Source of the DNA: Clostridiales bacterium
Lineage (GTDB): Bacteria > Bacillota > Clostridia > Christensenellales > Borkfalkiaceae
NCBI GenBank assembly: GCA_015069295.1
Contig: SVIW01000009.1
Coordinates: 1-64,000, forward strand
Direction of reading: 5' to 3'
DNA: 64,000 bases
In this document: positions 219 through 37,170 of the stretch, piece by piece
Numbering within the stretch: position 1 is the stretch's first letter
Layout of the letters: each line of letters begins with the position of its first letter
The notes under the pieces: model-generated
Database searches by the model: none
What the model was told of the DNA's origin: nothing
The model's input: the letters and a program-made list of their open reading frames with translations, nothing else
Made by a program: the position numbers and the translations under genes

Positions 219-1241
219 TTATCTTTGCACTCTGCCGCTTGCGTCGCCGCCTGCAAGGTTCATAACTTCCGCAACGGAGACCATATTATAATCCCCTTCA
301 ATCGAGTGTTTCAAACAGCTTGCCGCTACCGCAAACTCAATTGCCGCCTGCGGCTCTTTCCCGTTTAACAAACTGTAAATCAAGCCGCCGCCAAAGCTGT
401 CGCCGCCGCCCACTCTGTCCACGATATGCATCGAATATTTCTTGGAAAAATGCGCCTTTCCGTCCGTATACAACATCCCCGACCAGTCGTTGTCGTTCGC
501 GCTCTTGCTTTCACGCAAAGTAATCGCTACGCCTTTAAAATCAAAACGATCCGTCAATTTTTTCGCGACGGAGATATACCCTTCCTTATCCAGCTTGCCG
601 CCGTAGATATCCGTATTATCCGCCTCAATCCCGAACACGTCTTTTGCGTCCTCTTCGTTGGCGATACAATAATCGATATAACTACAAAGTTTGCCCATGA
701 CTTGCCCGGCTTTTTCTTTGCTCCAAAGTTTCTTTCTAAAATTCAAATCGCAGGAAATCGTGATATTCTTTTCTTTTGCCTTTTGGCAAGCGATTTCGCA
801 AATCTCCGCCGTTTCGTCGGAAAGCGCGGGCGTAATCCCCGTAAAATGGAACCATTCTACGCCGTCGAAAATCATATCCCAGTCGAAATCTTCCTTTTTC
901 GCCGTTGCAATCGAGCTATGCGCGCGGTCGTAAACGACCTTAGAGGGACGCTGGGAAGCCCCTTTTTCGCAATAGTAAATACCGACTCTTTCTCCGCCGC
1001 GCACGATTTTCGTCGTATCGACGCCGAATTTACGCAACGAATTCACCGCCGCCTGTCCGATTTCGTGGCTGGGCAATTTGGTTACGAACGCAACGTCTTC
1101 GCCGTAATTCGCCAAAGACACCGCCACGTTTGCCTCCGCACCGCCGAACGTCGCCTCGTAATTTTCGCTTTGCACAAAACGCAAATATCCCATCGGTGCC
1201 AATCTCAACATCAATTCGCCAAACGTTACTACCTTCTTCAT
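219..1241 (-). CDS. kdgK: 2-keto-3-deoxygluconate kinase (PfkB family sugar kinase)
   Basis: Cytosolic sugar kinase of 340 residues. It probably phosphorylates 2-keto-3-deoxygluconate to KDPG with ATP. The PfkB fold is visible: an N-terminal GELMLRLAP strand, a GGAEANVAVSLA motif at about residues 33-44, and the C-terminal anion-hole motif VGGGDSFGGG near residue 277, whose Asp is the catalytic base of the family. The start has a good ribosome site (AAGGAGAAAAGGAA) and lies 12 bp after the YitT gene, so the two are co-transcribed. The substrate is inferred from the KDPG aldolase gene at the head of the same operon; PfkB sequence alone would also allow fructokinase or another sugar kinase. Confidence 0.85.
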   Translation of the reverse strand: MKKVVTFGELMLRLAPMGYLRFVQSENYEATFGGAEANVAVSLANYGEDVAFVTKLPSHEIGQAAVNSLRKFGVDTTKIVRGGERVGIYYCEKGASQRPSKVVYDRAHSSIATAKKEDFDWDMIFDGVEWFHFTGITPALSDETAEICEIACQKAKEKNITISCDLNFRKKLWSKEKAGQVMGKLCSYIDYCIANEEDAKDVFGIEADNTDIYGGKLDKEGYISVAKKLTDRFDFKGVAITLRESKSANDNDWSGMLYTDGKAHFSKKYSMHIVDRVGGGDSFGGGLIYSLLNGKEPQAAIEFAVAASCLKHSIEGDYNMVSVAEVMNLAGGDASGRVQR

Positions 1242-1253
1242 TTCCTTTTCTCC

Positions 1254-2132
1254 TTATTTGTTTTCCTCATTCAACGCTTTAAAGCCCTTTCCTCGAACCT
1301 CAACCGAATCGTTGATGATAATAAACGCCTTTTCGTCAATACTTTTTACAACCTGCTTTAAATGCGAAAGCTGATTGTTTTTAACGCAAGTCAATAAAAC
1401 GTTATGCTCGTTATGCGTATACATACCCTCGCCTTCCAGCATCGTAATTCCGCGCGGGCTGCTCTCTAACAAAGTCTTGGAAATCTCCTCGCCCTTGTCG
1501 GTAATGATAATACACATTTTCGATTTTTCCAAGCCCGTCAACACCAGTTCGGACACTTTCGTGCTGACGAATACGACGATTAACGCGTGCAGCATATTCG
1601 CAGGCTCGCGCAGTACCACCGCGCCCAAAATAACAATCGCCCCGTCCAATATCCCCACGCAAATGGGAATCGTTAAGAACTTGAACCAACGAGTCAATAC
1701 CCGTCCCAAAAGCTCCGTCCCGCCGCTGGAAAACTGATAGCGAACGAACAGCCCTATCCCGACGCCTTGGCAAACCCCGCCGTATAACGACGCCAAAATC
1801 CCGTCATCGGTCAAAGGCGGTAACATCGCCAAAAGGTCGGTAACCACGCCGAGCGTCGCAACCGTCAACAGACAGCGGACGATAAATTTCCAGCCTTGGT
1901 ATTTTAACCCCAACAGCAAAATCGGCAGGTTGATAGCAATCGATATCATACCGACGAACGAAGTCAATTCTTCTTTTAGTTGCGCAATTAAAACGGCAAG
2001 CCCCGTCGCTCCGCCCGCAACGATTGCGTTGGGCGACAAGAAAAGACTGGTGCTCGACCCGTAGGCGATACACCCTAACACCATAAACAGAAACCCTACG
2101 ACCTCTTTGCGAATTTTTTCTTTATTGTGCAT
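1254..2132 (-). CDS. YitT family membrane protein (DUF161/DUF2179)
   Basis: Integral membrane protein of 292 residues with about five or six hydrophobic segments in the first 190 residues, including GGATGLAVLIAQL and SSGGTELLGRVLTRW. A soluble C-terminal domain of DUF2179 type follows (CIIITDKGEEISKTLL, then GITMLEGEGMY). This is the standard architecture of the YitT family, whose substrate is unknown. The ATG overlaps the last codons of the upstream aldolase gene by 11 bp, so translation is probably coupled. Its place between eda and kdgK suggests a transport or export role linked to sugar-acid use; this is inference from position only. Confidence 0.85.
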   Translation of the reverse strand: MHNKEKIRKEVVGFLFMVLGCIAYGSSTSLFLSPNAIVAGGATGLAVLIAQLKEELTSFVGMISIAINLPILLLGLKYQGWKFIVRCLLTVATLGVVTDLLAMLPPLTDDGILASLYGGVCQGVGIGLFVRYQFSSGGTELLGRVLTRWFKFLTIPICVGILDGAIVILGAVVLREPANMLHALIVVFVSTKVSELVLTGLEKSKMCIIITDKGEEISKTLLESSPRGITMLEGEGMYTHNEHNVLLTCVKNNQLSHLKQVVKSIDEKAFIIINDSVEVRGKGFKALNEENK

Positions 2133-30330: not shown

Positions 30331-32217
30331 TTATTTCTCTATTCTTTGCCAATTCCCTGCTATGTACTCTTTCGTTAAATAGCTTGCTGCCGTTGCCAAA
30401 TCTAACAAGTCTTCAGAAGAAATTATCCAATCCTCGCGTTGGTACGTCCACCCCTCGGTATTCTCAAAGTGTACACTCTTTAAATTAGAACACCCCAAAA
30501 AGGCTGCCCACTCAATAACGGTTACGCTTTGAGGAATACTTATCTCTGTTAACGCCAGGCACCCGAAAAACGCATTATCTTCGATTGTCATTATATTTTC
30601 GGGCAAAATAACGTTTTCCAAAGCCTCGCACCCGGAAAACGCACTCCTTCCTATCGTCATCACCCCCACAGGCACCGCAAAGCTTTTTTCCGTTTTGCCT
30701 ATGGCGTATTGTAACAGCGTTTTTCCGTCTTTCGTATACAAATTCCCGTCCACCGATTGATACGCAACGTTTTTCTCGTGCACCTGGATATCCGTTAATT
30801 TTTTACATCCTTTAAATGCACCGTTCCCAATTTCGGTTACGCTTTCGGGAATGCTTATTTCCGTTAATTCTTTACAATTTCCAAATGCACCGCTCCCAAT
30901 TTTGATTACACTTTCGGGAATGCTTATTTTTGCAATCTCGCAACCATAAAAGGCTCTTTCCCCTATATACTCGCAAACGCTTCCTTTCTCAAAAACAGCC
31001 TCTTTCAAAAAAGTATCTCTAAACAATTCCTCTGGAATTATTTTTACGTTCGCCCCAATAGTAACCGAAAATCTGTTTTGTCCCGCATCCTTGAAAGCCC
31101 CCTCCGCGGCTTCACATTCTACCGCATTATAACGTATTGTTTTTATTGGAGAATTCCAAAACGCAGATTCCCCGATAAATTCTGTCCTTTCGGGAATCTC
31201 CAACTCCTCCAACCAGCAACGGCTAAAAGCGTCTTCTCCTATGGACAAGCCGTATGCCGTTAAAAAGTCCCCCTCTTCAAACCGCAACTCTTGCAACGCC
31301 TGACACCCCTCAAAAGCACTTTTACCGATGGAAATCGTTCTTGCGGGAATCTCCACCTCGCTCAATCCCTTGCAGCGATAGAAAGCTTCCTCACCAATCG
31401 TCAGAGTACGCGGAAAGCCAACGCTCGTTTGTTTAAAGGTTACGCTCGTCAGCGCCTCGCACTCTGCAAACGCGCCCGCGGCAATTTCCGTTACAAATTC
31501 GAACACCTCAAACTCCGTTGCCTTTTTCCCTTTCGCATACGATAACAATACGCTGCCGTCTTTCGTATACAAATTCCCGTCTATCGATTGGTATGCGCCG
31601 TTTCCCTCGGCGACCGTAATCTTCTCCAAATTCTTACATCCTGAAAACGTACTGTTCATCGCAATTACGCTTTCAGGTATCGTAATTCTTTTCAAACTCA
31701 AACAGGAAGAAAAGGCGACCGGATCTATTGTCGTTACGGGCAATCCCTCGTATTCGGAAGGAATCACGATACAGCTATACGTACAATTTCCAATACCGTG
31801 TACCGCATAATAGGTGCCGTCCTGACTTTTTCTATATTCCAAATCTTGCCCCGCTACGTACTCGCAACGACTGCATTTCCCCGCCTCGTTACAATCGTGT
31901 CCCCACGCCGTTTCCTCTAAAACAACGGTGTGCAATTCTTCGCAACGTTCGCACTTCGCCGTCTGCGTCTCGTTCTCCTCGCAACTAACCTTTTCATCTA
32001 AAAGATACGTTTTAAACGAATGCCCCAGCTTATCAACACCATACGAACGGAAATTTCCGCACGAGCACATCTCTTCAATATACCCCTCTTTCGTGCAAGT
32101 TGCCTTATCTTCTTTTAAAATTTCATACTCGCAAGTATGCTCGCAACCCGCCACCGCAAATACGCTTGCCACAACGCAAGCCAAGGACAATACGCCCAAC
32201 AACAGTTTTCTTTTCAT
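30331..32217 (-). CDS. BspA-like leucine-rich-repeat lipoprotein
   Basis: Cell-surface protein of 628 residues from MKRKLLLGVLSLACVV (GGAGG seven bases before the ATG). A signal peptide ends in the lipobox AVAGC. Residues about 20-130 are unusually cysteine-rich with paired C-x2-C motifs (EMCSCG, KCERCEE, KCSRCEYVAG), likely a metal-binding or disulfide module. From about residue 150 there are roughly a dozen LRR_5 repeats of the BspA kind with the core I..SAF.GC..L..I.IP.SV. BspA-type proteins serve in adhesion. It lies behind an elaborate attenuator with a leader peptide, unusual for a surface protein. Confidence 0.9.
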   Translation of the reverse strand: MKRKLLLGVLSLACVVASVFAVAGCEHTCEYEILKEDKATCTKEGYIEEMCSCGNFRSYGVDKLGHSFKTYLLDEKVSCEENETQTAKCERCEELHTVVLEETAWGHDCNEAGKCSRCEYVAGQDLEYRKSQDGTYYAVHGIGNCTYSCIVIPSEYEGLPVTTIDPVAFSSCLSLKRITIPESVIAMNSTFSGCKNLEKITVAEGNGAYQSIDGNLYTKDGSVLLSYAKGKKATEFEVFEFVTEIAAGAFAECEALTSVTFKQTSVGFPRTLTIGEEAFYRCKGLSEVEIPARTISIGKSAFEGCQALQELRFEEGDFLTAYGLSIGEDAFSRCWLEELEIPERTEFIGESAFWNSPIKTIRYNAVECEAAEGAFKDAGQNRFSVTIGANVKIIPEELFRDTFLKEAVFEKGSVCEYIGERAFYGCEIAKISIPESVIKIGSGAFGNCKELTEISIPESVTEIGNGAFKGCKKLTDIQVHEKNVAYQSVDGNLYTKDGKTLLQYAIGKTEKSFAVPVGVMTIGRSAFSGCEALENVILPENIMTIEDNAFFGCLALTEISIPQSVTVIEWAAFLGCSNLKSVHFENTEGWTYQREDWIISSEDLLDLATAASYLTKEYIAGNWQRIEK

Positions 32218-32235: not shown

Positions 32236-32266
32236 AAAAAAATGCCGACTTGCGAACAAGCCGACA
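32236..32266 (-). terminator. attenuator terminator in the LRR leader
   Basis: Minus strand TGTCGGCTTG - TTCG - CAAGTCGGCA, 10 bp with two G-U pairs and a stable UUCG loop, then T7 (32236-32242). It ends before the ribosome site of the LRR gene, so read-through is required for expression. Confidence 0.8.
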
Positions 32267-32400
32267 CTAGCAAAAGTGGCTTATTCGCTAAAGCTGCGAC
32301 ACTCAATTAAAATCGTCCGTACAGAAGATTTGTATGTAAGCGAAAAAGGTACACTTATGCCCCATAAGTATACTTCCGTACGTTATTTAATTGAGTTCGC
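32252..32400 (-). promoter_or_regulatory. alternative-fold leader of the LRR gene
   Basis: On the transcript GCGAATAAGCC (32278-32288) can pair with GGCTTGTTCGC (32252-32262) over 11 bp (one U-G), which would dissolve the terminator. A long helix ACTCAATTAAAT (32385-32396) with its complement at 32301-32313 encloses the leader ORF and includes its stop codon, so a translating ribosome must open it. The first bases GCGAAC can also pair with the terminator loop region. Confidence 0.65.
32303..32365 (-). CDS. 20-codon leader peptide
   Basis: Short ORF starting MGHKCTFFAYIQ and ending CTDDFN, rich in aromatic residues, with two Cys. GGAAG lies seven bases before the ATG. The ATG and its ribosome site are themselves in a 13-bp hairpin (AAGTATACTTATG with CATAAGTGTACCTT, some G-U). 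The stop codon lies in the enclosing helix that controls the downstream attenuator. The layout is that of a ribosome-stalling leader peptide, as known for erm, tet and vmlR-type genes; no such resistance gene follows here. Coding is inferred from layout only. Confidence 0.55.
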   Translation of the reverse strand: MGHKCTFFAYIQIFCTDDFN

Positions 32401-32406
32401 AAGTTT

Positions 32407-32435
32407 ATTTTAGCACATTTTACCTTGCCCGTCAA
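32407..32435 (-). promoter_or_regulatory. promoter of the LRR leader
   Basis: Minus strand TTGACG (32430-32435), 17-bp spacer, TAAAAT (32407-32412). The start of transcription falls near 32400. Confidence 0.75.
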
Positions 32436-32439
32436 GACT

Positions 32440-32695
32440 TTTAATATTTTATATTAAAATTTACTCAAACACCCAAGCAAACGGGAGGCTAATAGCCTCC
32501 CCTACGAATATAGCAACGAAACTTTGCTCTCCCCACTCCGAACTCCCCAACCCGTAGGGGAGGATAGCATCCCCACCGCCCCTTGGCTCCCTTGTGCAAA
32601 GGGAGCTGGTGCAAAGCGCCTGAGGGATTGTCTATCCTATGCTCCACCGCAGGGCGACGGAGCGATAGACAAGACTGGATGCAAGCTCAGCTTGC
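32440..32695. repeat. intergenic dispersed repeats
   Basis: No gene is seen. The stretch holds GGAGGCTAATAGCCTCC (near 32483), a GTAGGGGAGGATAGCATCC unit, the palindrome GGCTCCCTTGTGCAAAGGGAG at 32585 (as at 33-56) and GATAGACAAGAC...GCAAGCTCAGCTTGCC (as at 182-214). They separate the LRR gene from the phage module. Confidence 0.6.
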
Positions 32696-33196: not shown

Positions 33197-34561
33197 TTAT
33201 TTTCCAAAAGCAACCTCTGCCGCCACGGACGAAATTTCCGCTTCTTTTGTGAAAACGAATTCCAAACAGAACCCTTCTCCGCGCTCGAATAAGTCAATTC
33301 CCACGCCCGTTTCCTTATCGCTGCCCATATCCACCCATCTTTCAACGATATGGTTTCCGTTATGCACTCGGCACAAAAACTCCCCGCGCCCGTGAAAGAG
33401 CAACCGTTTCAAAGTCTTTCTGCCCTGCTTTCCAAAAGTCAGCCTGCTGCTTTTGAAAAAACTCTGTCCGTATACCTCACCGTGCGCCGTTAACTTTTTC
33501 AACCAATCCAAATTGTCTTCCAATATCGTAAACAGCGTCCTCGACCCGTCGCCGCCCAGGCTCTTAAACCCGTCCGCAAAGCACGCCGTCGGCGTATTCC
33601 CGTCGAAAATAACCAACGTCGTATTCCCTCTCTTCTCGTCCTGATAACACAATAAAAACCTATCTTCTTTGGTAGTGCAAGTACAAAGCTGCCCCTCTTT
33701 CAACGGGTACACGGGTACCTCCTTACACACTTTTTCCGCCGTTTTGCCGTCAAACGCATACACACCGTCTTCTGCAAGAAAATAGATTTTTTCTCCGCAT
33801 ACCGCAGCGCTCGTACAAAAAATCTTCCCCCCGCTATAAGGCAATCGTTCCAAACGACATTCCGCCATGTCCCCGCTCGGTATCAAGCAGTAAATCCCGT
33901 ATTCCAAAATCACGTAGATTTTCTCTTTCCACACGACGAAATTGGTGATTTCTCCGTATTCCGCCGTCAAATCTATATACGAATTCCCTTCCTCGCCTTT
34001 AAAGACACACGGCTCGTCAGGCTCGGAAAACAAAATTCTCCCGCCCTCCAATCCGATGAACGCCCGTCCTTTATAGGCGCATACCGCCACTACGCAATGC
34101 AAATCCATAGGCGTACCGCCTTCAAAATCGTGCCAAGCCATGCCCTTGCCGACGAACAAAACCCCGTGCCTACCTTCTTTATTAAAGAGTACCACCGCCG
34201 CGCCGTCTTCGCCTGAACGCGCTTTTATATCCACGTCCAATTGGTTAGGTCTTTGCTGATACAACATGCCGTTATCCCCCAAGAAAAACAACGCCTCGTT
34301 TTCCGTCTGCCCATCCTCCGCCGCATAACGAAAATAATACAGCTTTTTCGCGTTATTTCTTTGAAGCATCATTCCTTTCGCCTCGTCCCCGTCGCCCAAG
34401 AAACAAAACGGCTGGTATAAAAGAGCAGGTCTAACCCCCGCGCGGCAATCACAGTTATGCCTTTCCGCCACCCGCAAGCCTTCCTCTTTCCCAAACCTTT
34501 TATAAACGAACCATTCGCTTTTCCCTTTTACGTTTACCTTTCTTTTTTTATATCCCGTCAT
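33197..34561 (-). CDS. phage beta-propeller protein, P22 gp10-like (packaged-DNA stabilisation)
   Basis: 454 residues from MTGYKKRKVNV; this ATG overlaps the preceding stop (TAATG) and has GAAGGTGG before it, while a GTG nine bases upstream is the alternative start. The protein is a run of about six or seven beta-blade repeats: GRHGVLFVGKGMAWHDFEGG, KGRAFIGLEGGRILFSEPD, VWKEKIYVILEYGIYCLIP, CGEKIYFLAEDGVYAFDG. By position (after coat and a gp4-like connector) and predicted propeller fold it resembles P22 gp10, which plugs the filled head. This is inference from synteny and repeats, not from a clear motif. Confidence 0.5.
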   Translation of the reverse strand: MTGYKKRKVNVKGKSEWFVYKRFGKEEGLRVAERHNCDCRAGVRPALLYQPFCFLGDGDEAKGMMLQRNNAKKLYYFRYAAEDGQTENEALFFLGDNGMLYQQRPNQLDVDIKARSGEDGAAVVLFNKEGRHGVLFVGKGMAWHDFEGGTPMDLHCVVAVCAYKGRAFIGLEGGRILFSEPDEPCVFKGEEGNSYIDLTAEYGEITNFVVWKEKIYVILEYGIYCLIPSGDMAECRLERLPYSGGKIFCTSAAVCGEKIYFLAEDGVYAFDGKTAEKVCKEVPVYPLKEGQLCTCTTKEDRFLLCYQDEKRGNTTLVIFDGNTPTACFADGFKSLGGDGSRTLFTILEDNLDWLKKLTAHGEVYGQSFFKSSRLTFGKQGRKTLKRLLFHGRGEFLCRVHNGNHIVERWVDMGSDKETGVGIDLFERGEGFCLEFVFTKEAEISSVAAEVAFGK

Positions 34562-35112
34562 TATATCCACCTTCTCGACGAAATCCGCTTATACGGCGCC
34601 AACGAGCGCACGCTCTCGATCGCGTCCTTGTATTTTCTGTCCCAAACCGCCGCCTCTTCAAACAAGCCCATCGCCAAACAATACTCTGCCGCCACACCGA
34701 ACGCCAGCAAACGCTTGGAAACGTTTTCCCCGTACTCACATTCTCCGTCCACGTCCTTTTCCTCGGGCACGAACGTATATCGCACGCGAACGGTACTCGG
34801 CTGCGTCGTCAAATATTTCGGGAAAATTTTAAACGGCAGCGAATCCCCTTGCAAGTTCCGCACCTCTAAAACCCGCAATACCCTCTTTTGCAACCAGCTA
34901 TACAAAATCTGCCCCGTCTCCGTGCTATACGTTTCCTCGTTTATAAGCGGCAAATAATCAATTGCCAGCTCGTTTTCTACGAGATGAAAACAAGTCGTCA
35001 ACAGCTCTGCGTTTTTCTTCCCCAGCGTATCCGTATCCGCAAAATACGCCGCCACCTCTTCTTCAATCCCCAGCAGCCTCGCCGCCGAAAGCACTACCTC
35101 TTTTATCTTCAT
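34561..35112 (-). CDS. phage head-tail connector, P22 gp4-like
   Basis: 183-residue mostly helical protein: KIKEVVLSAARLLGIEEEVAAYF, LLTTCFHLVENELAIDYLPL, and VSKRLLAFGVAAEYCLAMGLFEEAAVWDRKYKDAIES. Small helical proteins of this size directly after the coat gene are head-completion connectors (gp4 of P22, gp15 of SPP1). The start has AGGAG. It overlaps the next gene by a base and is separated from the coat gene by a terminator-like hairpin (35191-35226). Function assigned by position and size. Confidence 0.5.
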   Translation of the reverse strand: MKIKEVVLSAARLLGIEEEVAAYFADTDTLGKKNAELLTTCFHLVENELAIDYLPLINEETYSTETGQILYSWLQKRVLRVLEVRNLQGDSLPFKIFPKYLTTQPSTVRVRYTFVPEEKDVDGECEYGENVSKRLLAFGVAAEYCLAMGLFEEAAVWDRKYKDAIESVRSLAPYKRISSRRWI

Positions 35113-35190
35113 ACTTCTCCTTTTTACCTCCGCCCTTATAGTGTTATTTTTCCTCTTTTTCTACCGCCACATTCGCTCATAATTTTAATA

Positions 35191-35226
35191 AAGGGGGTAC
35201 AGGTACGCGTTGAACGCACCAATACC
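35191..35226 (-). terminator. hairpin after the coat protein gene
   Basis: Minus strand GGGGGTA...TACCCCC with an inner GCGTT-CAACGC stem, then TTTATT. It may lower expression of the connector genes relative to coat. Confidence 0.6.
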
Positions 35227-35254
35227 CCCTCCCCCTCACGAAGTCTTCGCGTTT

Positions 35255-36406
35255 TTACGCTTCGGTAATCCCCGTAATCATACCTTGACCGCAAGGACGC
35301 TGACAAACGAGTTCGGCATACTTAACGAGGGTCGCCGTATACACGGGCTTGCCCGCTACCTGCTTTAAGATTTTCCCGTCTTCCGCCTCCAACCACTGCC
35401 AATCGCAAAGCTGACAAAGCTTAAAGTCGTCGGTGTTGAGAAGGTACATCGTACCCGCAGGACAGAATCTATCCACGACGATAGGAATCCCGTTATAGCT
35501 AATCGCCTTGAAACCGCCCTCAATTTCCATAGTCGGCAGCGATACGTGATTTTGTTTAAAATAGGAAAGCAACGCGCGGCGTACCCCCCACGAACAAACG
35601 ATAAAGTTTACCTTACCGCCCGAAACCTCTTCAATTTCGTCCAAAGCCGTCTGGATCGTCATTTCGTCGATTTCGCCCGCGTCCTCCAAAACGTAAGGCT
35701 GCATCACCGTAACGTCTCTATCTACGCCGTAGAGTCTGTTTTCAGAGAAAATCGCACCCAAGCCCGTCAGCTCGTTGTTATCCGAACCGTAGATATAGAT
35801 AAGTGTTCCCTCAGGCACGTCGGTATTAAGAGGATAAGCCCCGGAAATATAAATTTTCTTTTCCTTTCTATCCACCTTTTCTACGACCAAGTTATCATAC
35901 TCGCTCTTGCTGGAAACGCGTACGCGCATACCTTCGACAATCCCGCTTACGCTGTCGAGGAAAATCCAATAATTTTGTACCCTAATCGTCTTTGCGACAA
36001 CCCCGCTGCCGTCGCCGAACAACATTCTGCCAAAATTAAAGGTCGCGCTCTTTACAAGCGTATTCATCTCGTCGTTCAAAAGATTGACGAACGAGCCCTC
36101 GTCGCTAGCGGAAGCGCGAAGCGCCTTATCGGAAATTTCAATCGTGCCGTACAAATTCTTCAAAGGCAGAGTAAACTGCAAATACTGCGAAGCGGACGCC
36201 GTGGGCAAATCCCCCGTTTCCGTACCCGCGCCGATCCCTGCGCTGTACGACTTACGCACCGTCATTTTCACGTCCTTCCCCACGACGTTTGCGCTCGTGC
36301 GTTCAATGCTGGCTAAAAACGGATTGGTTTTCATATTCAACGATTCCGCTACTGCGCCCAAATAAAAAGATTTCAATGCGCTATCCGCGCTGTTTAAAGT
36401 TACCAT
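35255..36406 (-). CDS. phage major capsid (coat) protein
   Basis: 383 residues; AAAGGAGTAAAAGT precedes the ATG. It starts with a helical arm (VTLNSADSALKSFYLGAVAESLN) and has the coat-typical TNPFLASIERTSANVVGKDVKMTVR, ETGDLPTASASQYLQFTLPLKNLYGTIEISDKAL and YNGIPIVVDRFCPAGTMYLLNTDDFKL near the end. The last motif, a recognised island or metal site with the phrase NGIPI..D...P, is found in many HK97-fold coat proteins. It lies between the scaffold and connector genes as expected. Confidence 0.8.
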   Translation of the reverse strand: MVTLNSADSALKSFYLGAVAESLNMKTNPFLASIERTSANVVGKDVKMTVRKSYSAGIGAGTETGDLPTASASQYLQFTLPLKNLYGTIEISDKALRASASDEGSFVNLLNDEMNTLVKSATFNFGRMLFGDGSGVVAKTIRVQNYWIFLDSVSGIVEGMRVRVSSKSEYDNLVVEKVDRKEKKIYISGAYPLNTDVPEGTLIYIYGSDNNELTGLGAIFSENRLYGVDRDVTVMQPYVLEDAGEIDEMTIQTALDEIEEVSGGKVNFIVCSWGVRRALLSYFKQNHVSLPTMEIEGGFKAISYNGIPIVVDRFCPAGTMYLLNTDDFKLCQLCDWQWLEAEDGKILKQVAGKPVYTATLVKYAELVCQRPCGQGMITGITEA

Positions 36407-36447
36407 ACTTTTACTCCTTTTTTACGTTTTTATTTTTCCTTGCTCTT

Positions 36448-37170
36448 TCAACCGTTTTTCGGCATTTTAAAATACTGCAACGCCATATCCCCGGCGTCGT
36501 GGATATTTCTCGGCTTTAAAGGCGGGGCGGCAAGCGTCCCCCTCCCCAAAGCCGTCAAGGGCGCGCCGCCCTTCCCCATCGAAGATAAATACTCCCCGAT
36601 AATTCGCAACCGTACGTTTTCGTTTTCGCAAACCTGTGTATACAGCGCCTTTGACGCATCTTCCTCGTCCGCACTCTCTACAACGTTCGACGTTTCCCTT
36701 TCCGACCCCGTTTGGACGGTATCTTCCGCCCCCGTACTCTCCTTCGAAAAAGCTGCCAAATCCGTCTCCACAGCCTCGCCTACACCCCCGTCCGTTGCCG
36801 CCGTTAAAGGCTCTCGTTTCTCCTCGGTTTTTTCCGCTTCCCCGCACGGCGCTACGCTCGTTGCTTTCTCGATAAACTCGTCAAAAGCCCTCGTTTCCGC
36901 CCTCCGCGCCTCGGCGTTCTTACGGAGCTTTTCCACCCCCGACGCCGCCTTGCTCTGCGATTCCGCTTCCCGCGCCTGTTTCTCCAACGCCTTCAAGCGT
37001 TGGCTACGCCTTGTAAACTCCGCCTGTAACGATTCGTACGCCCTTACAAGGGCGCTTACGTCCTTAAACTTTTCGGGTACCGCCGAGTCCTCTTTCCCAT
37101 CTTCCGTCTTCGCCGTCGCGCTTACCTCCGTCCCGTCCGTTTCCACGTAAACGTTCTCCTCTTTTTCCAT
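36448..37170 (-). CDS. phage scaffolding protein (probable)
   Basis: 240 residues, very acidic and low in hydrophobics, with a long coiled-coil-prone part (ALVRAYESLQAEFTRRSQRLKALEKQAREAESQSKA) and an unstructured Glu/Thr-rich region. The N-terminal phrase PEKFKDVSALVRAYESLQAEF is typical of capsid-assembly scaffolds. The C terminus ends PRNIHDAGDMALQYFKMPKNG. Size and location between portal and coat match the scaffold slot of P22-like modules. AAAGGAGG precedes the start. Confidence 0.6.
   Translation of the reverse strand: MEKEENVYVETDGTEVSATAKTEDGKEDSAVPEKFKDVSALVRAYESLQAEFTRRSQRLKALEKQAREAESQSKAASGVEKLRKNAEARRAETRAFDEFIEKATSVAPCGEAEKTEEKREPLTAATDGGVGEAVETDLAAFSKESTGAEDTVQTGSERETSNVVESADEEDASKALYTQVCENENVRLRIIGEYLSSMGKGGAPLTALGRGTLAAPPLKPRNIHDAGDMALQYFKMPKNG

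Follow-up and report, generated by a model that had tools for sequence, protein, structure and literature searches.

The leader between a promoter and an LRR_5 lipoprotein gene in the window (the whole stretch of 64,000 nucleotides analysed here) is one copy of an apparently undescribed structured RNA switch, other copies of which precede a large number of surface and accessory genes within one order of gut Clostridia. We consider it probable that this leader belongs to a new class of RNA and works in cis as a non-coding attenuator of transcription; whatever recognises its core of three helices (P1-P3) would set which partner the tail behind the core pairs with. A riboswitch-like attenuator is the most likely reading of the data. 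Sequence comparison establishes the promoter-switch-terminator unit with its helices, a tail that pairs with either partner, and the lack of a conserved open reading frame (ORF). We infer that the competition for the tail works in the cell and that a ligand exists, and also where the transcript starts and which way control runs.

The leader in the window and its alternative folds

The switch region of the window copy comprises 166 nt (32401-32236, on the minus strand, as are all features of the window copy given below) between the promoter and the LRR_5 lipoprotein gene. The promoter that had been predicted is indeed present (TTGACG-17 nt-TAAAAT, 32407..32435), and the end of its -10 box lies 5 nt before P1. 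The gene predicted to be controlled, which encodes a BspA-type LRR_5 lipoprotein (MKRKLLLG...), occupies 30331..32217 and starts at 32217. The 230-nt leader folds with an energy of -71.5 kcal/mol, compared with -51.5 kcal/mol in shuffles (z -5.1, 0/200 as low). From 5' to 3', P1 closes the element and encloses P2, which is variable in sequence, and the conserved hairpin P3. In the window, the 5' strands of P1 (32386..32401) and P2 (32374..32382) are drawn from fold and covariation, their 3' strands (32295..32311 and 32318..32326, respectively) from the fold, and P3 with its G-rich apical loop GG[UC][AG] (32349..32373) from fold, covariation and a motif count. The strand joining P3 and P2, which bears UUUUUCGC in the family and reads CUUUUUCGC in the window (32340..32348; swap test, covariation and fold), provides the first strand of a predicted pseudoknot. 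The second strand is the tail directly 3' of P1, GCGRRAARG in the family and GCGAAUAAG in the window (32280..32288; swap tests and fold), which is followed by the terminator and also supplies part of the 5' arm of the antiterminator. In the window copy the pseudoknot pairing (32348-32340 with 32288-32280), which is absent from the original prediction, contains a mismatch and has an energy of -7.2 kcal/mol.

The intrinsic terminator (32236..32268, -14.7 kcal/mol by folding) has the UUCG loop and the run of seven T (32242-32236) that had been described, and the antiterminator (32253..32287), assigned from the fold and from a swap test in 98 copies, has 12 pairs rather than the 11 originally counted. 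With -14.1 kcal/mol it is near energy balance with the terminator in this copy. The presence of mutually exclusive folds close to the promoter and ahead of the BspA-like lipoprotein gene is thereby borne out, as judged from sequence and energy. Similarly, the ATG of a 20-codon ORF (MGHKCTFFAYIQIFCTDDFN, 32303..32365) does lie inside a hairpin, P3, which has 11 pairs and not 13, and its stop codon sits in the enclosing helix, P1; since the ORF is not conserved among copies, we judge it to be accidental (see below). Two other features were observed 5' of the leader: a perfect GGGAGGCTATTAGCCTCCC hairpin at 32483-32501, 5' of the promoter, and a group of frames that are phage-like by eye at 33197-37170 (minus strand), including a capsid-like protein at 35255-36406.

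A family of leaders and its sister type

DNA matches to the leader were found in 21/61 genomes, counting its own, which holds a second copy. A covariance model of P1-P3 and the tail (R1, which the 13 sequences used to build it match by construction) identified three copies in the window genome, to which a laxer search adds two antisense echoes. R1 matches at least 40/57 genomes of the genus (E <= 0.01) and at least 36/396 genomes and 15/142 genera of the order (E <= 0.001), and a single genome can carry up to at least 8 copies (G029, E <= 0.01); in a phylum-wide draw of 398 genomes, the window genome alone matches among the candidates scored (E <= 1e-4). It should be noted that, for sets of more than 40 genomes, the RNA model scored 8-9 candidates in each genome of the order and phylum sets and 60-69 in each genome of the genus set, so that these counts are lower bounds. 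In four genomes of the genus (G021, G023, G024 and G063) all R1 matches are weaker than E 3.1e-5, and at least that of G063 (G063:C44) is a copy of the sister type described below. The core pattern was found in 41 stretches of named genomes, whose titles are Clostridia or Clostridiales from metagenomes; where a title gives a sample, this is goat, sheep, yak or deer.

The strongest 120 places were taken with their flanks: 83 of 99 genus rows (E <= 3.1e-5) and 37 of 51 order rows. The remainder consists of 16 weaker genus rows, and 9 weaker and 5 already counted order rows; some of the weaker rows are sister-type copies. A contig end cuts 31/120 of the type I places (<300 nt upstream or <2,700 nt downstream), perhaps as a result of repeat-rich genes breaking the assemblies.

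The whole unit recurs among these type I copies. Using scripts of our own for promoter, terminator, lipoprotein and gene picks, we found a sigma-70-like promoter (score of at least 9/12) within 50 nt 5' of P1 in 112/119 copies, compared with 12/119 after shuffling, and in 104 of those 112 copies the end of the -10 box is 5 nt from P1; a terminator lies behind the element in 113/119 copies. An alignment of 100 copies (A3, with 20/120 places left out) was fitted to P1-P3, the pseudoknot standing outside the model. Over 43 pairs, including 7 pseudoknot pairs, 90.5% of the cells are paired, compared with 75.6% in shuffled and 42-54% in slid alignments, and both sides have changed in 649 cells versus 197 in shuffles. 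In the case of the pseudoknot, 88.1% of the cells are paired and covariation is modest: double changes occur in 11/700 cells and single-sided ones in 79, and 3/7 pairs are without any change on both sides. A failure of the pairing partners to covary had been named as grounds for giving up the original prediction; P1-P3 do covary, and strongly so, and native partners outperform swapped ones. The 5' leaders thus described carry a covarying, aptamer-like structure, as riboswitches do. The P3 loop GG[UC][AG] is present in 115/120 copies (31/120 shuffled) and AAUA 5' of P2 in 92/120 (43 shuffled). These two are the only conserved letters for which no partner has been named, and letter conservation could stem from the several pairing partners of the letters concerned.

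A fourth LRR lipoprotein gene of the window genome, on contig C16, has a different leader with the same plan. By DNA, this leader with the start of its gene matches 17/57 genomes, some matches lying outside the leader. A second model for this sister type (R2, which its 9 building sequences match by construction) finds it in at least 20/57 genomes of the genus (E <= 0.01) and in at least 52/396 genomes and 25/142 genera of the order (E <= 0.001). Neither R1 nor R2 finds further sense copies in the window genome. The sister helices are 92.9% paired, with 335 changes on both sides versus 99; the sister alignment (A6) has 48 rows, one each for 45/48 loci, with the second elements of two tandem pairs and an antisense match from L304 making up the rest. 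The two types have letters in common in the P3 core, including its loop, and in AAUA: in the sister copies GG[UC][AG] is present in 38/49 (shuffled 8) and AATA in 38/49 (shuffled 9). When R2 was run on 37 type I loci, it gave 25 weak sense matches (at most 27.9 bits) and 10 antisense matches, including the best match overall (29.8 bits). Judged from these sequences, type I and the sister type are likely, but not proven, to be homologous.

Several observations concern individual loci. Tandem sister-type elements precede a SLOG-like gene (YpsA-like by eye) at L349:1278-1385 and 1501-1612, and at L350:1209-1315 and 1501-1606. A possible third subtype, with P1 GCAAYACAG/CTGTRTTGC, is seen on the minus strand at L296:1532-1640 and L298:1536-1641; these candidates have pseudoknots GCCC/GGGT or GTCC/GGAC and are followed by zinc-ribbon-like and SLOG-like genes. 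In a relative, a SAM riboswitch match (L335:1252-1338, minus strand; 51.9 bits, above the gathering score) lies on the strand opposite a sister-type element, at a distance of about 160 nt.

Competition for the tail and alternative explanations

Three partners compete for the tail: the joining strand alone, the joining strand extended by the 3' half of P3, and the terminator, through its 5' arm and its loop. Each pairing was compared with ones in which partners were swapped among copies, by permutations that ignore kinship between the copies. The joining strand pairs with its native tail at -8.99 kcal/mol versus a swapped mean of -8.49, with 0/2000 permutations as low, although the best permutation, at -8.95, nearly reaches the native energy; this test covers 101/120 copies, the other 19 having been omitted where the pattern missed one or both strands, and at least three of the rows kept are mis-anchored (L092, L094 and L098). 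For the antiterminator (98 copies, 22/120 omitted), the native energy is -8.68 versus -7.40 for swapped partners (lowest -7.98; 0/2000), and the native pairing is better than the median swap in 74/98 copies. For the joining strand extended by that half of P3 (100 copies, 20/120 omitted), it is -14.7 versus -13.6 (lowest -14.2; 0/2000), and this invasion by the tail makes at least 4 pairs inside P3 in 100/100 copies. In the sister type the tail pairings differ from copy to copy (GUAUCC/GGAUAC, ACCGCC/GGCGGU, CUUCCC/GGGAAG), and native partners again outperform swapped ones, at -12.97 versus -10.00 in all 49 copies and -13.24 versus -9.13 in the 22 copies without the common GAGAG tail (0/5000 in both cases); this test spans the joining strand and the 3' half of P3, and so measures pseudoknot and invasion together. 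A tail common to pseudoknot and antiterminator would couple the expression platform to the core, another feature of riboswitches.

Since the tail can pair either with the core or with the terminator arm, it could either lock the core, leaving the terminator free, or save the gene through the antiterminator. In the mechanism that we propose, the transcript probably begins at P1 and folds P1, P2 and P3, after which the tail 3' of P1 would have the choice of two partners. In the OFF state it would pair with the P3/2 joining strand, forming the pseudoknot, and further into the 3' half of P3, so that the terminator is free; in the ON state it would pair with the 5' arm of the terminator, forming the antiterminator. 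The choice would fall to a factor that recognises the core; a small ligand is the likeliest candidate, a protein a less likely one.

The original prediction had a different trigger: a ribosome stalled on the 20-codon ORF would shift the folds, as in erm, tet and vmlR. The position of the ATG in the hairpin and of the stop in the enclosing helix fits this idea, and so do one copy (L117) that keeps the peptide with a single amino-acid change, the presence of some ATG ORF of at least 15 codons within the leader of 46/119 copies, and the gathering of the starts of leader ORFs (at least 12 codons, any start) in two regions of conserved letters, the beginning of P1 and P3. The mutually exclusive antiterminator and terminator are also what a stalling leader would have. 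Such leaders, however, have a conserved short ORF with a start and a ribosome-binding site, and none was found across 119 copies. The start ATGGGG in P3 is present in 3/119 copies, namely the window, L117 and L118, and L118 lacks one base, which shifts the frame into a 52-residue reading that runs past the terminator; a close relative (L012), whose leader is 85% identical to that of the window over the matched part, has ATC in place of the ATG; a leader ORF of at least 12 codons behind a Shine-Dalgarno-like match of at least 5/6 occurs in 3/119 copies; and the length of the joining strand differs by single bases among copies. For the family, we regard the leader-peptide reading as already refuted by the loss of the ORF from homologous leaders, and for the leader itself as very improbable. 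The accompanying suggestion that the leader was captured from a resistance gene is rejected as well: searches of 72,556 plasmid records and 50,697 phage records gave no match, nor did one exact-pattern scan of viral contigs, and the homologues examined precede surface and accessory genes.

Two further alternatives keep the folds and dispense with a small ligand or with control in cis. A switch run by an RNA-binding protein, by transcription speed or by temperature is in our view rather unlikely, even though the downstream genes have no common pathway and the near balance of antiterminator and terminator in the window copy means that small effects could tip the switch; with its conserved apical loop and AAUA, the elaborate core would suit a binding pocket, although a protein could read these letters too. 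We consider it improbable that the terminated transcript (about 165 nt) acts in trans as a small RNA, with read-through being incidental. Six of the 120 places are without a picked downstream gene (L165, L169 and L173, with 2,700 nt left downstream, and L141, L168 and L196, with 59-214 nt left), and in some copies, such as L104, the picked gene is more than 200 nt away; yet in 92/114 copies with a picked gene no more than 80 nt separate the element from the start of this gene, and native antiterminator partners match each other better than swapped ones, which a free RNA would not need.

Target genes, related RNAs and implications

Among 113 type I downstream proteins, cut at 440 residues, 55 contain LRR_5 (BspA-type); the others include Listeria-Bacteroides repeats (9), collagen repeats (7) and TIR_2 (2), and, among the 25 commonest of 73 Pfam families, zinc ribbons, SPFH and LicD. 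Our pattern detects lipoprotein-like N-termini in 73/114 type I targets. In the sister type (47 of 49 proteins), LRR_5 was found in 6, together with zinc ribbons and one YpsA (SLOG) protein, and several further targets are SLOG-like by eye. The window genome has about ten LRR_5 frames, three behind type I and one behind the sister type. Four others show no such leader upstream, within 420 nt for two of them and 100 nt for the other two, and a long frame on contig C1 and one starting at a contig end stand outside this comparison. In a relative, a different terminator-bearing leader, of neither type by eye, precedes an LRR-like lipoprotein gene (L025:about 1239-1568, minus strand).

No family of Rfam 15, which includes the T-box, c-di-GMP, fluoride and ZTP families, reaches its gathering score on the element, either in a gathering scan of the window or in permissive scans of 23 loci of both types. 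All matches overlapping the element are far below threshold (on the L002 element, MIR7502 with 30.5 of 71 bits and MIR5565 with 22 of 80; on that of L358, MicX with 24.4 of 75), and a known Rfam family was rejected on these grounds. Near leader copies, matches resembling Gut-1 RNA that stay below its gathering score (50 bits) lie at L028:1887-1962 and 1721-1797 (47 and 27.6 bits) and, in the window genome, at L305:2280-2352 (46.1 bits); Gut-1 itself is listed as human gut only (PMC2864571). A T-box reading of the GGU loop was dropped because the base before GG varies. An integron-like attC site was considered because structure outlives sequence here, and was set aside on the conservation of the promoter distance, the terminator and the antiterminator. 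Searches of an open-access library returned no earlier description of the element, and in the main text of the papers on new bacterial RNAs that were consulted the terms leucine-rich and lipoprotein are absent. On the basis of these searches and of Rfam, the element is apparently undescribed.

In fluoride, ZTP and preQ1 riboswitches, a pseudoknot strand beside the expression platform competes with the formation of a terminator or antiterminator. The element described here resembles them in this respect and differs in having no Rfam match at threshold, other helices and a tail that can invade the 3' half of P3. c-di-GMP riboswitches occur before adhesin genes, which is a parallel to the present case, where a leader RNA is predicted to control a surface protein. 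However, apart from the lack of an Rfam match, a search for GGDEF proteins in the genus found them in 4/57 genomes; the window genome and 52/56 others gave none, and only one of the four genomes with GGDEF (G028) also has a type I match. Since 53/57 genomes are without GGDEF proteins, c-di-GMP is unlikely as the ligand. The closest published analogue that we found is the SLH motif, a riboswitch candidate of unknown ligand that lies before S-layer-homology genes, partly in Clostridia, with about 60% of its copies preceding SLH-domain proteins and c-di-GMP as a possible ligand according to its authors (PMC6429828). Both are structured RNAs 5' of surface-protein genes, partly in Clostridia. The targets here, on the other hand, are LRR_5 lipoproteins and others, SLH being absent among the 25 commonest of 73 Pfam families; the distinction is drawn from the target genes.

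Tentatively, and with rather less confidence than in the attenuator as such, both types may belong to a new riboswitch superclass of at least two subtypes, with a common P3 core (AUACU..UUGGUARAA..GUAU) and freely re-invented pseudoknots. Such a superclass would sense a signal and switch a large, lineage-specific set of surface lipoprotein, zinc-ribbon, SLOG and TIR genes in gut Clostridia, its tail displacing half of the core hairpin. In the sister type the tail pairing persists through many unrelated sequences, which offers a clean natural data set for the choice of the tail between pseudoknot, strand invasion and antiterminator. If our reading is correct, it would add an undescribed RNA regulator to Clostridia that are known here from ruminant-gut metagenome assemblies, and with it control over those surface proteins with which the cells meet their host and other microbes. 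The ligand, if there is one, would point to the signal that governs surface display in a genus in which 53/57 genomes are without GGDEF proteins.
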